Assembly (NCBI RefSeq): GCF_001548115.1
Contig: NZ_AP014821.1
Coordinates: 3,847,262-3,911,261, forward strand
Direction of reading: 5' to 3'
DNA: 64,000 nt
Source: Geminocystis sp. NIES-3709
GTDB lineage: Bacteria > Cyanobacteriota > Cyanobacteriia > Cyanobacteriales > Cyanobacteriaceae
Part shown: positions 7,882 through 54,282 of the stretch, one piece after another
Position numbering within the stretch: the first letter of the stretch is position 1
Layout of the letters: every line of letters starts with the position of its first letter
The notes under the pieces: model-generated
What the model saw: the letters and a program-made list of their open reading frames with translations, nothing else
What the model was told of the DNA's origin: nothing
Databases searched by the model: none
Program-made: the position numbers and the translations under genes

Positions 7882-9432
7882 TTAGTTGGGTTTTTCAATG
7901 CGCTCCCAACCATCAGGAGAACCCAAAGCTGGACTAACAACATTGTTAAGATAAGTTGCTAATTCGGCGTTGGTAGCACCTGTACCTAAATGGGCAACGT
8001 GGTTACCTTGACCACCGCCATCCCAACTGTTAATCCAATATACCCCTCTGTTATTAGGATTCTGAGTGCCACCAGTGGACATATTAAGACCTCCAGTACC
8101 AGCATAACAACCTTGAGCTTGACCACCACCATTAATATCTAAATCATAGGTAGGAGCATGAATAAAAGCAGAACAGATAGAAGCATTACCGCCAAGGTGA
8201 ATATCTCCGTTAGCTGACTTACCAATAATTCTTAACTGTAATTCTCCAGTGTTGGCAGGATAAACTAAGTTACCGCCACTGATTTGGATACGAGAGTTTT
8301 TAATGGCGGATTGTCCACCTTGTAGATCAATATCACCACTTACATATACTGTTACTTTGTCGTATTTACCACTAGGTACACCAACTCGATCGGGTACATT
8401 AACAGTAAAATCTCCTGTAATAGAACTAATTGTATAACGATATTCACGAGTTCCATCCGCATTGGTGATGTAAGGAGCAGCTGAACCAGTAGCACTAATA
8501 TCCGTAGCACTAGGAACAGTAACACCACTGGTAGAAGTTATAGCTCTGAAATTAGCTGTAGGAGTTGCAGGAGTTGCAGGCATAGTCATGTTTGTACCAA
8601 TGATCTTATAACCTGATACGTCAAAAGGAGAACTAGAAAAAATATTGCCAGAACTAGGACAAGTTACGAGAATATTTGTTCTAATATCCGATGAACTAGA
8701 AGGAGATTTTACCCAAAGTCCAATGCCTTCTCCATTAACCGAAGGAATGGAGTCCGCCACAGAACGAGTATTACTAACAACAGGAAATGTTACGTTTGTA
8801 TAATATTCAGCCCCAGAACCATTTGTTCCGCCGACTCTTCCGCCTATTTGCATCGTACCGTTATCATAAGTTAATAAACGATAGGAAAGAGACTCTCCAG
8901 AGGGAAGATTGGGGAGACTTGCCCATGTAGTAGTAGGAGTTCCTGAATTTCCAGCCGTTACACCAATGCCCGTACTCAAGTTAGATACAACAGTATTTGC
9001 TGTTGGCGTAGCGGTAGTAGGGAGGTTGTTACAAGCACTACTAGAAGAACCACTGGTGTTTGCTTGAAAAGAAGGACTTGAGGTTAGTTGATTGTTACCT
9101 TGTAACTCAGTGATTTTAGCGGCAATGGCGGTATTATTCCAGTTAGTGCTAGGCAAGGTGAGTAAAACAGGGTTTTTTCTTAAAAAGTCTTGTATCTGTG
9201 TTGCTCCAGCCTGTACTGCTTTTTCGGCTTGTACTGCTTGTTGAGTATTAGTTGCAGTTAATTTATTACTGTTTGCCTTTGCTACCATAACAACTCCCGC
9301 AGTAATAGCCACTAAAGAAAATCCTAATACGGCAAGAAATGTAAAACCTTTTTCTTCTTTAAGGTTCGCTCTATATATTAGGGTTAGTAAATTATTAAAG
9401 TTTTGGTTAATTTCATTTATTTTTTTATTCAT
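7882..9432 (-). CDS. PilX/GspK-like large minor pilin, first gene of pilin operon
   Basis: A 516-aa protein. The N-terminus has a prepilin-like junction KEEKGFTFLAVLGF near residue 29, followed by a hydrophobic helix (SLVAITAGVVMVAK). The residue five after the presumed cleavage point is Ala, not Glu. Absence of Glu5 is a known property of the tip pseudopilin GspK and PilX-like proteins. The large secreted part is Ser/Thr/Gly/Asn-rich, with a stretch (VSGDIDLQGGQSAIKNSRIQ) that looks beta-helical. The gene heads a minus-strand operon with three other pilin-like genes. There is an upstream AT-rich leader of about 600 bp. The exact function is unknown; surface pilus tip or motility is likely. 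Confidence 0.7.
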   Translation of the reverse strand: MNKKINEINQNFNNLLTLIYRANLKEEKGFTFLAVLGFSLVAITAGVVMVAKANSNKLTATNTQQAVQAEKAVQAGATQIQDFLRKNPVLLTLPSTNWNNTAIAAKITELQGNNQLTSSPSFQANTSGSSSSACNNLPTTATPTANTVVSNLSTGIGVTAGNSGTPTTTWASLPNLPSGESLSYRLLTYDNGTMQIGGRVGGTNGSGAEYYTNVTFPVVSNTRSVADSIPSVNGEGIGLWVKSPSSSSDIRTNILVTCPSSGNIFSSSPFDVSGYKIIGTNMTMPATPATPTANFRAITSTSGVTVPSATDISATGSAAPYITNADGTREYRYTISSITGDFTVNVPDRVGVPSGKYDKVTVYVSGDIDLQGGQSAIKNSRIQISGGNLVYPANTGELQLRIIGKSANGDIHLGGNASICSAFIHAPTYDLDINGGGQAQGCYAGTGGLNMSTGGTQNPNNRGVYWINSWDGGGQGNHVAHLGTGATNAELATYLNNVVSPALGSPDGWERIEKPN

Positions 9433-48326: not shown

Positions 48327-50999
48327 TTATTGTGTGATATGATCTGCTAAAATAATACTTTCTCGATGAGCTTTAATAAGACTAATTTTTTCTTGATTAA
48401 CTTGCTCTAACATAAAGCAAACTTGCTCAGGAGTTAATAAAGTACCATCATTTTTAGCACTGCCAATATAGTTAATTTTAACTTGATCTAATTCTTCCCA
48501 ATTCTCATCAATTAAAGAGATTTTCTCTAAATTTTCTCTAAGATTGACCATTTTTTTCTTACCAGTTTTAGCCGTCTTTTGCATTAATATTTCCTTAGAA
48601 TTTTCCACATTATCAAGCCAATTTTCCCACTGACTAAGGCTATATTTATTATCGGTAGAAACCGTAATAAAATATTCAGCTTTTTCTAAAATTTGCGTGG
48701 CTTTCGGAGATTTAACAGGCAATTCTTCCACTTTAAAAATTGGGATTTCGAGAGGCAAATTAGCTTTTAATTTTTCCGTAAACTCATCAATATTCATCCG
48801 AGTATGATTCTCAAAATCTACGATTTCCCCATTACTCGTCATCCCTAATGATAAAGCAAGGGCGATCGAAATTTTAGGACCGGGATGGAATCCCCCAGTA
48901 TAGGATATAGGTATCCCCGCCCGTCTGATAACTCGATCGAACAAACGCACTAAGTCGAGGTGACTAACTAAAGCCATATCTCCCTGTTTACCAAACCAGA
49001 CTCGTAATTTTTGGGCTTTTTCTTGGTTAGGCTTAAACTCTCCTAAATATTCGGGAATGGGAGGAGGAGTCACTACAATATTATGCCCAAAATCAGTGCT
49101 ACAAACACCGCAACTACTGCAACCATCAAAGGCACAATCAGGCACACTAGCCTCTTGTAATGCCCTTTCTAAGTCTTCCACAAGCCATTGTTTATCAATA
49201 CCCGTATCTAAATGATCCCACGGTAAAGGCATCTTGTAAAACCTCTCTCCAAGCCTCTCTTCAGCAAGAGAGGGAGTTTTAGATTCTTCAGATTTCGCAC
49301 CTTCTAAGGGGGGATTAAGGGGGGTTAAACCTTCAAATAGATTCCATTCGCCGTTTTCTACCAGTCGATACTTCCAAGTTAATTCTGCTTCATCAATAGC
49401 AGTTTGCCACGCTTTATAAGCCTTGTCGATGTTTTCCCACCATGAATCCATACCAGCCCCCAATTCCCATGCCCTACGCACTACGAGAGCAAGTCTTCTG
49501 TCTCCTCTACCCACAAAATCCTCGATCGCCGAGATACGCACATCGGTATAATTAACTTTAACTCCCCTCATGCCATAAAATTCATCTTTAAGGATGTTGC
49601 GTTTACGCATAAATTCCGATGTCGAGACGGAATGCCATTGAAAAGGAGTATGGGGTTTTGGGGTAAAGTTAGAGATGGTGATGTTAAAATCAAGCCTTCT
49701 GTTGCTGAGGTGACGGCATTCTTGACGCAACCATTTAACAGCTTCCACGATGCCGATAACATCCTCATCGGTTTCCCCCGGTAAGCCTATCATGAAGTAA
49801 AGTTTAACCTGATTCCAACCTTCTCTTACGGCTGTCTGGATACCACGCAATAACTCCTCATTGGTTAAGCCTTTGTTGATTATATCACGCATTCGTTGAG
49901 TACCTGCTTCGGGAGCGAAGGTTAAACCACCTTTTCGAGTGCCTCCGATAATATTAGCAATGTTTTCGTCAAATCGATCGACTCTTTGAGAGGGAAGGGA
50001 TAAAGAGATATTTTCATCGTGGAGACGGTTTTTAATTTCGATGCCAACGGCAGGTAAAGAGAGATAATCGGAGCAACTGAGAGATAATAGGCTAAATTCG
50101 TTAAATCCTGTCTGTTTCATGCCATCCACGATGCTATTTATCACTTCTTCTGGCTCAACATCTCTGGCAGGGCGCGTTAACATCCCCGGTTGACAAAAAC
50201 GACATCCCCTTGTGCAACCCCTTCTAATCTCGATGGTGAGTCGATCGTGAACTGTTTGCACATAAGGCACTAATCCGATAGAATAGGCTGGCATTGGTGT
50301 AGCTACCCGTCTTAAAATCCTTTCAGGCACATCATCACGATTAGGCTTAACACTACCATCGGATTGCATATCATAGAATTGAGGTACATATACCCCCGGC
50401 ACTTGGGCTAAATCTAATAGTAATTCTGTTCTAGTTAAACCGTCTCGTTTGCCTTCTTCAATAACTAAACCAATTTCGGGTAATAATTCCTCTCCGTCAC
50501 CTAATGCCACGAAGTCGAAAAAGTCTGCATAAGGCTCAGGGTTTGAGGTTGCGGTTTGTCCTCCTGCAAATATCAAAGGGTAATCGGTATCTTTTCTTTC
50601 TTGCCAAGTTAAGGCAATGTGAGCTAAACTGAGCATTTCTAAGATATTAGTCGCTCCTAGTTCATAACTCAAGCTAAATCCTAAAATATCATATTCTTTA
50701 ACGTCTCGTTTCGTTTCAAGGGCAAATAAGGGGGTATTCGTCTCCCTCATCTTCATCGCTAAATCGGGTGCAGGTAAGTAGGCTCGATCGCACATTTGCC
50801 TTGGTTGGGCGTTAATGATATTGTAGAGGATAATATGCCCTAAATTTGATGCTCCCACCTCATAAACTTCAGGATAAGTCAACACCCATCTAACTTTGGC
50901 GGTGTCGAAGTCTTTATGTTTTGCCCCCAATTCGTTACCTAAATAACGGGCGGGTTTAAATATTTCTGGTGTAATTAGTGTATCCGTTGCAATAACCAT
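48327..50999 (-). CDS. B12-binding-like radical SAM protein with C-terminal DUF2344 (TIGR03960/TIGR03936 type)
   Basis: An 890-aa protein. Residues 1-220 contain a cobalamin-binding-like fold. The radical SAM cluster motif RGCTRGCRFCQPG lies near residue 262. SPASH-like Cys (DCAFDGCSSCGVCS) lie about residue 625. The C-terminal DUF2344 domain (residues 660-840) starts with KLRVWFGKQGDMALVSHLDL. The family is widespread but its reaction is not established; tRNA modification has been suggested. Residues about 556-588 (GLTPLNPPLEGAKSEESK and on) have the character of a translated palindromic repeat inserted into the frame. The gene is alone with a normal start. Confidence 0.9.
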   Translation of the reverse strand: MVIATDTLITPEIFKPARYLGNELGAKHKDFDTAKVRWVLTYPEVYEVGASNLGHIILYNIINAQPRQMCDRAYLPAPDLAMKMRETNTPLFALETKRDVKEYDILGFSLSYELGATNILEMLSLAHIALTWQERKDTDYPLIFAGGQTATSNPEPYADFFDFVALGDGEELLPEIGLVIEEGKRDGLTRTELLLDLAQVPGVYVPQFYDMQSDGSVKPNRDDVPERILRRVATPMPAYSIGLVPYVQTVHDRLTIEIRRGCTRGCRFCQPGMLTRPARDVEPEEVINSIVDGMKQTGFNEFSLLSLSCSDYLSLPAVGIEIKNRLHDENISLSLPSQRVDRFDENIANIIGGTRKGGLTFAPEAGTQRMRDIINKGLTNEELLRGIQTAVREGWNQVKLYFMIGLPGETDEDVIGIVEAVKWLRQECRHLSNRRLDFNITISNFTPKPHTPFQWHSVSTSEFMRKRNILKDEFYGMRGVKVNYTDVRISAIEDFVGRGDRRLALVVRRAWELGAGMDSWWENIDKAYKAWQTAIDEAELTWKYRLVENGEWNLFEGLTPLNPPLEGAKSEESKTPSLAEERLGERFYKMPLPWDHLDTGIDKQWLVEDLERALQEASVPDCAFDGCSSCGVCSTDFGHNIVVTPPPIPEYLGEFKPNQEKAQKLRVWFGKQGDMALVSHLDLVRLFDRVIRRAGIPISYTGGFHPGPKISIALALSLGMTSNGEIVDFENHTRMNIDEFTEKLKANLPLEIPIFKVEELPVKSPKATQILEKAEYFITVSTDNKYSLSQWENWLDNVENSKEILMQKTAKTGKKKMVNLRENLEKISLIDENWEELDQVKINYIGSAKNDGTLLTPEQVCFMLEQVNQEKISLIKAHRESIILADHITQ
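49237..49330. repeat. Palindromic repeat inserted in the radical SAM coding frame
   Basis: Contains AACCTCTCTCCAAGCCTCTC, then GCAAGAGAGGGAGTTTTAG, and CCTTCTAAGGGGGGATTAAG, i.e. inverted CCTCTCT/AGAGAGG and oligo-C/G blocks like the widespread cyanobacterial intergenic repeats. It keeps the reading frame and adds about 31 residues between the conserved parts of the protein. Confidence 0.6.
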
Positions 51000-51099: not shown

Positions 51100-51860
51100 A
51101 TGGATAGAGAAACATTACTAAGATTTTATCAAGAAGGTCAAAGAGATTTTACAAAAAATGTTTATTTTAAAACCGATGATTTAGAAGACATTAATCTTAG
51201 CAATGAAGAATCTTAGCAATGAAGATTTAAGCGACATTAATTTGAAAGGAAATGATTTACGAGGTGCTGATTTAAGCGGATGTAATTTAACAAATGCTGA
51301 TTTAACTAGGTGTGATTTAAAAGGTGCTGATTTTACAGATACTATTTTAGTTAATACTAATTTTGAAGGAAGTGATTTAAAGGGGATTAATGCTGAAAAT
51401 AGTCATTTTGAAAATGCAAATCTAAATGGGTGTGATTTTTCAGGATCAAATTTATATAAAGCTACTTTTATTAAGTCGAATTTATCTCATACAAAGTTTA
51501 ATAACTGTACTTTAAATGAGGCAAATATTCAAGAATGTTTATTAAAATTAACTGAGTTTAATAATTCACAATTAGTGAATATCAAAATAGAAAAAGCATC
51601 ATTAGATTTATTAAACAATAATATTAAATCTATTGGTAGTTATTGTCATTTTAATTATTCCAATTTAGAAAATGCAATCCTATGTCATAGTAACTTATCT
51701 GATTCTGATTTTAATGGTTCTAATTTAATTGGTATCAATTTTAAGAAAGCAATATTAGTAAGTTGTAATTTTAATAATTGTTCATTAAATAACTCTAATT
51801 TTGAAAATGCTTGTTTAGGAGTAAATTTATTTGGTAGTAAGTTTAGTAAATCTGATCTTA
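51100..51860 (+). pseudogene. Pentapeptide-repeat/nuclease fusion gene, N-terminal part (frameshifted)
   Basis: The ATG at 51100 starts MDRETLLRFYQEGQRDF and then DLEDINLSNEES before a stop caused by a 16-bp tandem duplication at 51194-51225. Removing one copy restores EDINLSNEDLSDINLKGNDL and joins the long pentapeptide-repeat array (A(D/N)LxG-type: LRGADLSGCNLTNADLTRCD). An internal ATG at 51203 could still express the repeat region. The array is cut at 51860 by an IS630 element and continues at 53051. Without the duplication and the element, the whole gene would code for 552 aa. Confidence 0.85.
51194..51225 (+). repeat. 16-bp perfect tandem duplication causing a frameshift
   Basis: ATCTTAGCAATGAAGA occurs twice in a row. 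Sixteen is not a multiple of three, so the second copy shifts the frame of the pentapeptide gene and creates a stop (TAG inside the second copy). Confidence 0.92.
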
Positions 51861-53048
51861 AGCTAAGACGCACTTGTATAGTCTATAATCATAATAACAC
51901 AAATAAATTTGTTAATCTTAATTATGCCTATTAAAAATTTCTTATCACTAGAAGAAAAACATTATTTACAAAATGCTTTAAAAAAAGAAGATAGAGCTGA
52001 AGTAAGAGAACGAATTTTAATATTTTTATTAGAAAATGATGGTAAAAATTACCAAGAAATCGCAGATTTTTTAGGTTGCTCTACTCGAACAGTTGCATAT
52101 TGGGCAGTTCATGGAAACCCTAATAATATAGAAAGTTTACAGAATGAAAGTAGAAAAGGAAATTATCACAAAGCCACACCAGAATATCGAAAATTATTAT
52201 TAAAAGTAGTAGATATAGAACCGAGTGCTTTTGGATATGAATTTGGTCGTTGGACAGGAAAAAGATTATCGGAACACTTAGAAAAAGAAACTGGTATTAA
52301 GTTAAGTAAATCTCAAATACAAAGGATATTAAAAAAAATAAATATGTCTATATTGGGTCAAAATATAGTTTAGAAGATAAACAAGATCCAGAAAAAAGAG
52401 AATTATTTAAAGAAAAAATAGAAGAATATATAAGATTAAGTAAAGAAAGAGAAAATGATTTACGGATATGGTTTTGGGATGAATGTGAGTTTAGTTTAAG
52501 AGTAATAAGAAGACAATTATGGACAAAAAAAGGTAAGAGAAAAACTGTCAAAGGTATAAGAAGAAGAGGGAGAGTAAATATGATGGGTGGCTTAAGATAC
52601 TCAGATAAAAAAAGAGTATGTTATGTAATTAAAAAAGGAGATTCTATGACATTTTATGAACAGTTAAAGAAACTGAATGAAGAAATAAAAGAAGAATGGA
52701 TAAAGAAGGGAAATAAAAAAGAAGATTTTGAAAAAATAGGACCAAAAATAGTACTAATATTAGATAATGCTAGTTTTCATAAAAAGAAAGAGATAATAGA
52801 AAAAATAGAGAAGGAATTGCCGAATATAATATTGGAATATTTACCTCCTTATAGTCCAGATTATAATTTAATAGAATTAGTATGGCATTCAGCAAAAGAA
52901 TATATAGCTAACCGAGAATTTGAAAATGTAGAACAATTAGAAAAAACAATTAGAAGATTATTAAATGAGAATCAATTAGAAATAAATTGGAGTAAAAAAT
53001 TTAAGAATAAGGGAAATTTGATTAATGCAACTTAAATGCGTCTTAGCT
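51861..53048 (+). mobile_element. IS630-family insertion sequence, 1188 bp
   Basis: The left end AGCTAAGACGCACTTG and the reverse complement of the right end, AGCTAAGACGCATTTAAG, form inverted repeats. The TA dinucleotide at 51859-51860 is duplicated at 53049-53050, as is standard for this family. Excision with one TA restores the host frame (SDL TNSNLAF). The element holds one transposase gene in two frames. Confidence 0.93.
51924..53035 (+). CDS. IS630-family transposase, two frames joined by a -1 shift
   Basis: The ATG at 51924 begins MPIKNFLSLEEKHYLQNALK. The first frame holds the helix-turn-helix part (YQEIADFLGCSTRTVAYW; GKRLSEHLEKETGIKLSKSQ) and stops at 52373. The second, one base back, gives IGSKYSLEDKQDPEKREL and the DDE domain: IWFWDECEFSL, VLILDNASFHKKK and YLPPYSPDYNLIELVWHSAK. 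The switch lies at an A8 tract (52331-52338) read as A AAA AAA. Programmed -1 frameshifting is known in IS630 members, so the enzyme is probably functional. Start TTG at 51909 is possible but less likely. Confidence 0.88.
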
Positions 53049-53050
53049 TA

Positions 53051-53964
53051 CTAATTCAAATCTTGCTTTCACAAAAATAAATTATGTTAAATTTATTCAG
53101 ACAAAATTAATTAATGTTAATTTTAGTAATTCTTTAATAGAAAAAACAGAATTTGTTAATTCAAACCTTGAAAAATCAGACTTTAGTGATAGTAAAATAT
53201 TAAATAGTTTATTTGAAAGAGTCATTTTAAATTATTGTATTTTTGAAAGAGCATCAATAGAGCAAATTAGTATCAAAGAATCAGATTTAACAGGTTTAAA
53301 TATTCAAGAAGATAATCAAATATTTACCTTAAAAACAACCGATTATTATCTTAATTTATTGATTAGACAACAATTAGATTTTTTAGAAAGATATAAAAAA
53401 GGTAATTTACTAGAGTCTAATTTAATTGGGTTTCATAGCGAAGTAACAATTATTAATCAATCGGAAATAGATATGATTAGTAACTTTTGTTTTGATATGA
53501 TTGATAAGTATTCCAAGAATAGAAATAATGCTGAATCTAAAACTATTTACAATAATTTTTTTAAAGGTAAATTAGGCGAATTTGTGGTTAAAACAAGATT
53601 GGGAGATATTGTTAACAAAGTAGATTATGAAAAATATGGAAATGGTATAGATGATGGAGGTATAGATTTAACTTTATTAAAAAATCCAAAAATTGGAATA
53701 CAGGTTAAAACACGTACAGGTAATTCGATGTTAGATGTAAATTGGTATATAAATAAGAAAGAAATTGAAAAAAATAAACTAATAGTTTTTATGTTTATTG
53801 ATAAAGAAATTGATATAAAAAATTCTCAGTATCAAATTATTTTAGTAGGATTTTTAATAACGTTAAGAATAAAATCAAAAGATTCTATTAGTTTTAAGGC
53901 AAAAGATTTATTATACATAGGCGGTATTTATGATGTTTTAAAACATTTAGAAGAAAAATATTAA
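53051..53964 (+). pseudogene. Pentapeptide-repeat/nuclease fusion gene, C-terminal part with PD-(D/E)XK-like domain
   Basis: Continues the array after the IS (TNSNLAFTKINYVKFIQTKL; FVNSNLEKSDFSDSKI), then a helical linker (LLIRQQLDFLERYKKGNLLE). The C-terminal domain has GKLGEFVVKTRLGD, GIDDGGIDLTLL and KIGIQVKTRTG. This gives Glu, Asp and QxK in the positions of a PD-(D/E)XK nuclease fold, similar to restriction or Holliday-junction enzymes. An ATG at 53359 would allow the nuclease-like domain to be made alone. I do not know a characterised protein with this combination. The role (defence, DNA processing) is inference. Confidence 0.8.
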
Positions 53965-54069
53965 TTATCAATTCTAAGATAATTAAGTCAAAACTTTGTC
54001 AGATATTTGTTATAAAATGTTAAGAAAGTTCTTATGAATAATTTTATTAATATATTCCATGTCTAAATA

Positions 54070-54282
54070 ATGATCGAGCTTAAATATTTTATGACTGATG
54101 ATGAATTGAAACAATATTTTCTTAAAAATAAGGATAATAAAGAGGCTTTTTATGCTTATTTAGATAGGAAAGAAAACAAGGAAAAAAAAGTTATTATAAG
54201 TGCTGATGAATTGCAGTCTCTACCTTCTAATTTACAAGTAGAATTAGTTGCTCAACGTCTCAAAAAAAAATTTAATATTTAA
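54070..54282 (+). CDS. Small charged protein, MTDDEL type (DUF6887-like)
   Basis: A 70-aa protein. After MIELKYF it reads MTDDELKQYFLKNKDNKEAF and YLDRKENKEKKVIISADE. The MTDxELxxY pattern is known from small cyanobacterial proteins often paired with a second small gene in antitoxin-like modules. The true start may be the internal ATG at residue 8. The partner gene is not found next to it. The C-terminal part (LPSNLQVELVAQRLKKKFNI) is basic. It lies 105 bp after the broken nuclease gene. Function unknown. Confidence 0.6.
   Translation: MIELKYFMTDDELKQYFLKNKDNKEAFYAYLDRKENKEKKVIISADELQSLPSNLQVELVAQRLKKKFNI

Follow-up and report, generated by a model that had tools for sequence, protein, structure and literature searches.

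DUF4365 (PF14280) is the DREN nuclease of the short-Argonaute system SPARDA, with Q62 and K64 as its likely active-site residues (PMC10810196); this paper and those named below are cited from excerpts of their text. In another study of DREN, the residues D41, Q60 and K62 are given and the enzyme is described as inactive alone and activated by tetramerisation on a filament (PMC12205087). The joining of one constant domain to many partners is a pattern of cyanobacterial conflict systems (PMC7159879). TRADD-N/VMAP/EAD-type systems resemble the family described here in that a constant domain is combined with exchangeable pentapeptide, TPR, propeller, GUN4 and FGE modules (PMC7159879, PMC8195603), and TRADD-N proteins can carry a terminal REase, with pentapeptide or TPR repeats at the opposite terminus (PMC8195603). 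GUN4 is a tetrapyrrole-binding domain, and a previously unreported REase clade is mentioned in the same paper (PMC7159879). A pentapeptide-nuclease fusion of the form reported below is not described in the excerpts of PMC7464499, PMC7159879, PMC1189080 and PMC8195603 (most subscription journals lie outside this coverage), nor in those of PMC7517822, PMC10810196, PMC12205087 and PMC10853773. Here we analyse a broken gene of Geminocystis sp. NIES-3709 whose intact form would carry a C-terminal PD-(D/E)XK domain of an unnamed cyanobacterial family on a pentapeptide-repeat beta-helix. This pentapeptide version would be unusual, a beta-helix bearing a nuclease.

A broken gene and its intact orthologue

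In the window, that is the whole 64,000-nucleotide stretch of DNA that we analysed, inspection of the sequence and of its open reading frames showed that positions 51100-53964 hold one gene in pieces, distributed over three frames (Table 1). The frame from 51203 encodes pentapeptide repeats and reads on into an insertion sequence (IS), and a 305-aa open stretch at 53047-53964 comprises the repeat tail, a linker and the C domain. A first-pass annotation, made from the sequence alone, had proposed that the IS and a 16-bp duplication interrupt a single 552-aa frame. This was borne out by the calculated length of the restored gene (2865 - 1188 - 2 - 16 = 1659 nt, i.e. 552 codons and a stop) and by an intact orthologue, which was sought in related genomes and found, whole and collinear, at the same place in one of the four other genomes of the genus (G001; L144:7156-8814). 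It encodes the full 552 aa and does not end before the nuclease-like region. By blastn, window positions 51100-51860 aligned with 7156-7900 of L144, the window side being 16 nt longer, and 53048-53983 aligned with 7898-8833, with ∼90% identity on either side of the IS; the 16-bp duplication was absent from the corresponding site in L144. Both loci share the same upstream gene, which we take to encode a radical SAM protein. The gene in the window is a recent pseudogene. Its pieces were searched separately, and statements about the whole protein rest on the intact orthologue.

Table 1. Pieces and lesions of the broken gene, in window coordinates
Feature	Position	Strand	Remarks
5' fragment: start codon and N-terminal cap, 38 aa, then stop by frameshift	51100..51216	+	start shared with L144:7156
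16-bp tandem duplication, frame-shifting	51193..51224 (copies 51193-51208 and 51209-51224)	+	missing in L144; 16-nt length difference
Main pentapeptide-repeat piece	51203..51860	+	Pfam Pentapeptide, E 5.3e-47 (51203-51934); orthologue 87% identical at the aa level
IS630-type insertion, 1188 bp	51861..53048	+	12-bp terminal inverted repeats, TA duplication, transposase parts
Final pentapeptide repeats, first part of the linker	53050..53334	+	Pfam Pentapeptide_4, E 1.1e-9 on 53047-53964
Putative PD-(D/E)XK-type C domain; Glu in GKLGEF, Asp in GGIDL, Gln and Lys in IQVK	53335..53964	+	

The inverted repeats of the IS are perfect and its TA flanks lie at 51859-51860 and 53049-53050. The transposase parts (51909-52373 and 52580-53035) match HTH_23/HTH_32 and DDE_3 in Pfam, a combination that we take to fit the IS630 family. 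The IS probably arrived recently, since the same genome holds a second copy that is 99% identical (G000:C4:46940-48126) and, among the 40 of 290 candidates that were scored, at least 29 more matches of nearly full length with 75-77% identity. These copies suggest that IS630-type elements are active in the genome.

When the pieces were compared with the orthologue, the C domain had the lowest dN/dS among the parts of the broken gene (0.14), below the repeats (0.29) and the repeat tail (0.52); the upstream gene, taken for comparison, gave 0.10. Judged from these sequence ratios, the pieces still appear constrained. Synonymous divergence from the relative was 0.19-0.35 in the parts of the broken gene versus 0.74 in the upstream gene (48327-50999), and the G+C content was 21-24% in 51100-53964 versus 41% in the upstream gene; later exchange or codon bias are possible reasons for this contrast. 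Immediately downstream of the broken gene, a small DUF6887 protein is encoded at 54070-54282 (+). The window's neighbouring genes presumably include those for GltD, SepF and ProC, which we named from their translations. Just upstream of the intact gene lies a 104-aa frame with serine-rich repeats (L144:6739-7053, +); the corresponding stretch of the window is just 100 bp long. In G004, a further genome of the genus, 86 aa of the C domain survive, with 85% identity to L004, and no repeat part was found within the surrounding 7 kb.

The joining of a long pentapeptide-repeat array to the C domain, as first annotated, is real in the intact relative, where PF00805 matched the repeats with an E-value of 1.7e-51. 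The same annotation called the beta-helix DNA-mimic-like and suggested a DNA-targeting or defence protein; on that reading the beta-helix would be a DNA mimic through which the protein targets DNA. The repeats do match HetL and Qnr-type models, all under cut-off. However, the acidic excess is modest (43 D+E versus 31 K+R in the 335 aa of the orthologue's repeat part), Alr5209 and HetL, both cyanobacterial repeat proteins, rank best among the NCBIfam models, and the Qnr and MfpA models match far under their cut-offs (best Qnr 71.5 bits versus a cut-off of 240). Moreover, pentapeptide-repeat stretches are frequent in the window's genome (46 matches) and the majority of the sampled family members have no pentapeptide repeats. 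Because of the modest acidic excess and the low Qnr score we rejected DNA mimicry, which we consider highly improbable.

The C domain and its nearest described relatives

For the C-terminal ∼200 aa, no family was reached in Pfam, NCBIfam or PADLOC, in agreement with the first-pass remark that no described family of this form was known. PADLOC 2.0.0 matched 0 families for five proteins. A Pfam search with 25 aligned members gave nothing of note, only nine scattered weak matches, the best of them to RRG7 (E 0.015, two members). The C-domain profile A1 gave three chance matches (E≥0.57) among the sequences of solved structures, and in PHROGs there was one weak match to a family with unannotated function (phrog_8242, E 0.0074). 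Alignment A1 comprised the rows kept after removal of L001 (the window itself), L005 (a stop inside the domain), L026, and L017, L019, L023 and L027 (each similar to rows that were retained). A nuclease-type domain that is missing from the searched family libraries is present in about a third of the sampled related genomes (33 of 100 at E≤1e-3).

The C domain contains a Glu, an Asp and a QxK in the order of PD-(D/E)XK enzymes. AlphaFold2 (22 rows) returned a model with a pLDDT of 83.6 and a pTM of 0.83 in which the order helix(Glu)-strand(Asp)-strand(QxK)-helix-strand is predicted (H65-92, E110-114, E121-128, E137-139, H141-146, E149-155). The elements of the PD-(D/E)XK core come in order and the core is seen in outline, its first strand being reduced to single-residue bridges (residues 93 and 97). 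A second model (window 53047-53961, alignment A4), which had a pLDDT of 61.7 and rendered the repeats as helices, was set aside. Against the PDB, Foldseek gave no fold match at E≤0.001; the top ten were all EcoRV or HincII (E 0.04-0.22, probability ≤0.30, TM ≤0.32). These type II restriction enzymes, the best-ranked solved folds for the C domain, belong to the same superfamily as a PD-(D/E)XK-type domain, but their match lacks significance and no methylase partner was noticed at the window locus. Among viral predicted structures there were 20 matches at E≤1e-3 (probability 0.98-1.00, best E 3.5e-6), namely 14 phage proteins, 1 Pandoravirus protein and 5 proteins without a name; those at ranks 6 and 8 are named restriction endonuclease. 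The nuclease-like character first read from the motifs is upheld by residue order, predicted fold and viral fold matches, with a moderate profile similarity to DUF4365, and a PD-(D/E)XK fold is supported, but not proven, by sequence and model.

With hhalign, the family (31 non-redundant rows) aligned to DUF4365 (8 rows) with a score of 31.5, a probability of 42.5% and an E-value of 2.6e-4 for the single comparison, the Asp and the QxK being in register; the 100 column shuffles all stayed below this score. The 20 rows with the active signature alone scored 21.7, with 1 of 150 shuffles above (21.9), and the other 18 family rows scored 24.9; the stretch aligned to DUF4365 was about equal across all three family subsets. 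Dropping single DUF4365 rows gave 19.1-23.0, the three divergent rows alone gave 26.1, and the reversed control gave 15.0. The eight rows of the DUF4365 profile came from 8 of 14 loci after partial, stop-bearing and weak ones had been dropped, and the Mrr profile had 16 rows. Membership in Mrr_cat was rejected, as 22 of 100 shuffles equalled the whole-family score; the active-only subset scored 19.5 against Mrr over ranges with both motifs, a value that had no shuffle control and is not convincing. The Pfam model PF14280 itself had no match in the window at E≤1 and none in 25 members at E≤0.1. We regard DUF4365/DREN, with moderate confidence from these profile comparisons, as the probable nearest characterised relative of the family. 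DREN is of the PD-(D/E)XK type, with the Asp on strand 2 and the QxK on strand 3 (PMC12205087), and these residues are in register in the moderate profile match to the C domain. In contrast to DREN, the C-domain family has a different N-terminal part with invariant Q13, F16 and E36. Unlike in SPARDA, no APAZ-type match was found among the Pfam matches listed (two of the tables list 25 of 56 and 25 of 59 families), and the 50 PDB fold matches listed, out of 257, included no SPARDA entry. The REase clade mentioned in PMC7159879 is possibly this family, possibly another.

Distribution and partner modules

Besides the related genomes, the domain was matched in 56 of 386 genomes of the phylum (E≤1e-6), every one of them a member of the same order, and in 118 of 388 genomes of that order (E≤1e-15). 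In 43 of the 56 there were at least two match rows, some of which are fragments of one copy. The best 80 of 169 relatives, mostly from Nostoc, Anabaena and their kin, are 64-85% identical to L006 and nearly all are TPR proteins. There was no match in the phage collection, no relative among the viral contigs and a single plasmid record (Calothrix brevissima NIES-22), which led us to reject spread by phages or plasmids. No gene family was constant beside the domain, the commonest neighbour being found in 18 of 80 loci; with no conserved neighbours in these 80 loci, the idea of a defence island was rejected as well.

Partners were assigned by phmmer to 139 domains from 138 loci. TPR stood behind the domain in 124, WD40 in 7, TPR plus WD40 in 1 and FGE plus TPR in 2; 2 had no known partner and 3 had pentapeptide repeats in front (L003, L004, L012). 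These counts are biased to relatives of L006, and GUN4 was not queried, so that GUN4 proteins are counted as TPR. A further 31 loci, some with the same genes, yielded 30 domains (24 TPR, 2 WD40, 1 pentapeptide, which was L004 again, and 3 matchless), no domain being obtained from L202. Pfam scans of ten proteins bore out the pentapeptide, TPR, WD40 and FGE assignments, and in four of five others scanned (L187, L188, L201, L205) GUN4 stood behind TPR. The domain lies N-terminal to TPR, WD40, GUN4 and FGE modules but C-terminal to pentapeptide repeats. The pairing of pentapeptide repeats with a nuclease-like domain, on which the first-pass annotation had built, is a real fusion, but a minority version, a point that the annotation had missed. 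In a tree of 39 rows, the window, L003 and L004 formed a clade (support 96/99) and the placement of L012 lacked resolution, so that the pentapeptide fusion may have arisen once or twice.

The family appears to differ from the TRADD-N/VMAP/EAD-type systems in that no vWA, TRADD-N or EAD appeared in general Pfam scans (in which no models by those names were run), and in that no steady neighbour accompanied the domain in the 80 loci. In the scanned proteins, Pfam found mainly repeats, GUN4, FGE and tudor, plus weak matches. L013 and L014 combine the domain with TPR and an FGE-sulfatase domain (by Pfam in L014 and by phmmer in both), a kind of domain that is varied by diversity-generating retroelements. 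In the protein of L066 (3678-4943, +), the domain and a short TPR stretch are accompanied by a tudor domain of the PcrA/UvrD type at the C-terminus. In L189 (1009-2130, -), the domain is followed by ∼160 aa and the protein has no Pfam match at E≤0.001.

Could the protein be a housekeeping nuclease that processes DNA or RNA in repair, recombination or turnover, with repeats that only bind partner proteins and with no defence role? The near-absence from mobile elements described above, the 64-85% identity to L006 of the best 80 of the 169 relatives, nearly all with TPR, and the UvrD-type tudor domain of one member would fit such a role. However, presence is patchy in both the related genomes and the phylum, copies are broken not only in the window but also in L005, L078 and L111, with a lone remnant in G004, and the partners, GUN4 and FGE included, have been exchanged. 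We consider a housekeeping role unlikely.

Catalytic residues and possible function

The catalytic residues were read from 127 distinct, stop-free domains, the window's and 126 from fetched loci; 2 of 140 loci yielded no full stop-free domain. TPR fusions and intact residues are over-represented, as 80 of the 140 loci are the relatives, out of 169, that ranked highest for similarity to L006 in one scan, and some loci hold the same gene twice (e.g. L118/L008, L139/L009, L182/L004). The full Glu/Asp/(E/Q)/Lys set is present in 106 of the 127, the window's included. By partner, it is complete in 101 of 113 TPR domains, 3 of 4 pentapeptide domains (window, L003, L004), the 1 TPR+WD40 domain and the 1 partnerless domain, and in none of 6 WD40-only (L016, L017, L019, L022, L029, L031) and none of 2 FGE domains (L013, L014). 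The 21 domains that miss it are thus 6 WD40-only, 2 FGE, 12 TPR and 1 pentapeptide, L012, which has Asn for Asp. A TPR paralogue in the window's own genome (L002) has I, V, L and K at the four catalytic positions, so that only the Lys is kept.

This split by partner strengthens the alternative that the domain is now mainly a non-catalytic docking or assembly module that retains the nuclease fold, as the set is lost throughout the WD40-only and FGE rows. Q13, F16 and E36 are moreover invariant in 127 of 127 domains, even where catalytic residues are lost, and L002 keeps just the Lys of the four positions. On the other hand, most of the distinct domains, among them that of the window, keep all four positions, and the C domain is more constrained than the repeats (dN/dS 0.14 versus 0.29). 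A docking module without catalysis is in our view improbable.

The explanation that we tentatively prefer, short of confidence in it, is that the intact protein is a switchable, DREN-like nuclease that would be switched on when its repeats or sensor bring about assembly, with a possible role in defence or stress; this explanation draws on sequence, model and analogy. Cleavage switched by assembly or by a ligand appears most likely because a constant domain with swapped partners and catalysis-lost relatives resembles the organisation of the cyanobacterial conflict systems (PMC7159879, PMC8195603), and because of the analogy with DREN. The nuclease-type domain would be the constant part and the repeat or sensor module the exchangeable part, the catalytic set being mostly kept with TPR, also with TPR+GUN4 and pentapeptide repeats, and mostly lost with WD40 and TPR+FGE. 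By analogy with DREN, the repeat part may sense a partner or a state and bring the nuclease domains together, and the assembled domains may then cleave DNA or RNA as part of a defence or stress response. Activity, activation by assembly and biological role are what we infer from this analogy, and a role in defence is plausible. If active, the protein would make it possible to test how bacterial nucleases are switched by repeat scaffolds and by metabolic sensors.

A broader, rather doubtful extension of the switchable nuclease is that the whole family may consist of nuclease effectors switched by assembly, in which a constant DREN-like domain sits on exchangeable sensors (pentapeptide, TPR, GUN4) and the catalysis-lost relatives (with WD40, the FGE lectin fold and some TPR) have regulatory or decoy functions, in some cases within one and the same cell. 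If this were true, the sensing of photosynthetic state and of invaders would be linked to the destruction of nucleic acids.

The gene on the Calothrix brevissima plasmid (L181:3890-5497, +) is annotated as DnaJ; its translation shows a nuclease-type domain and WD40 repeats, and a KAP P-loop protein is encoded downstream of it. This WD40 protein, which is outside the count of 127 domains, shows the catalytic motifs by eye.
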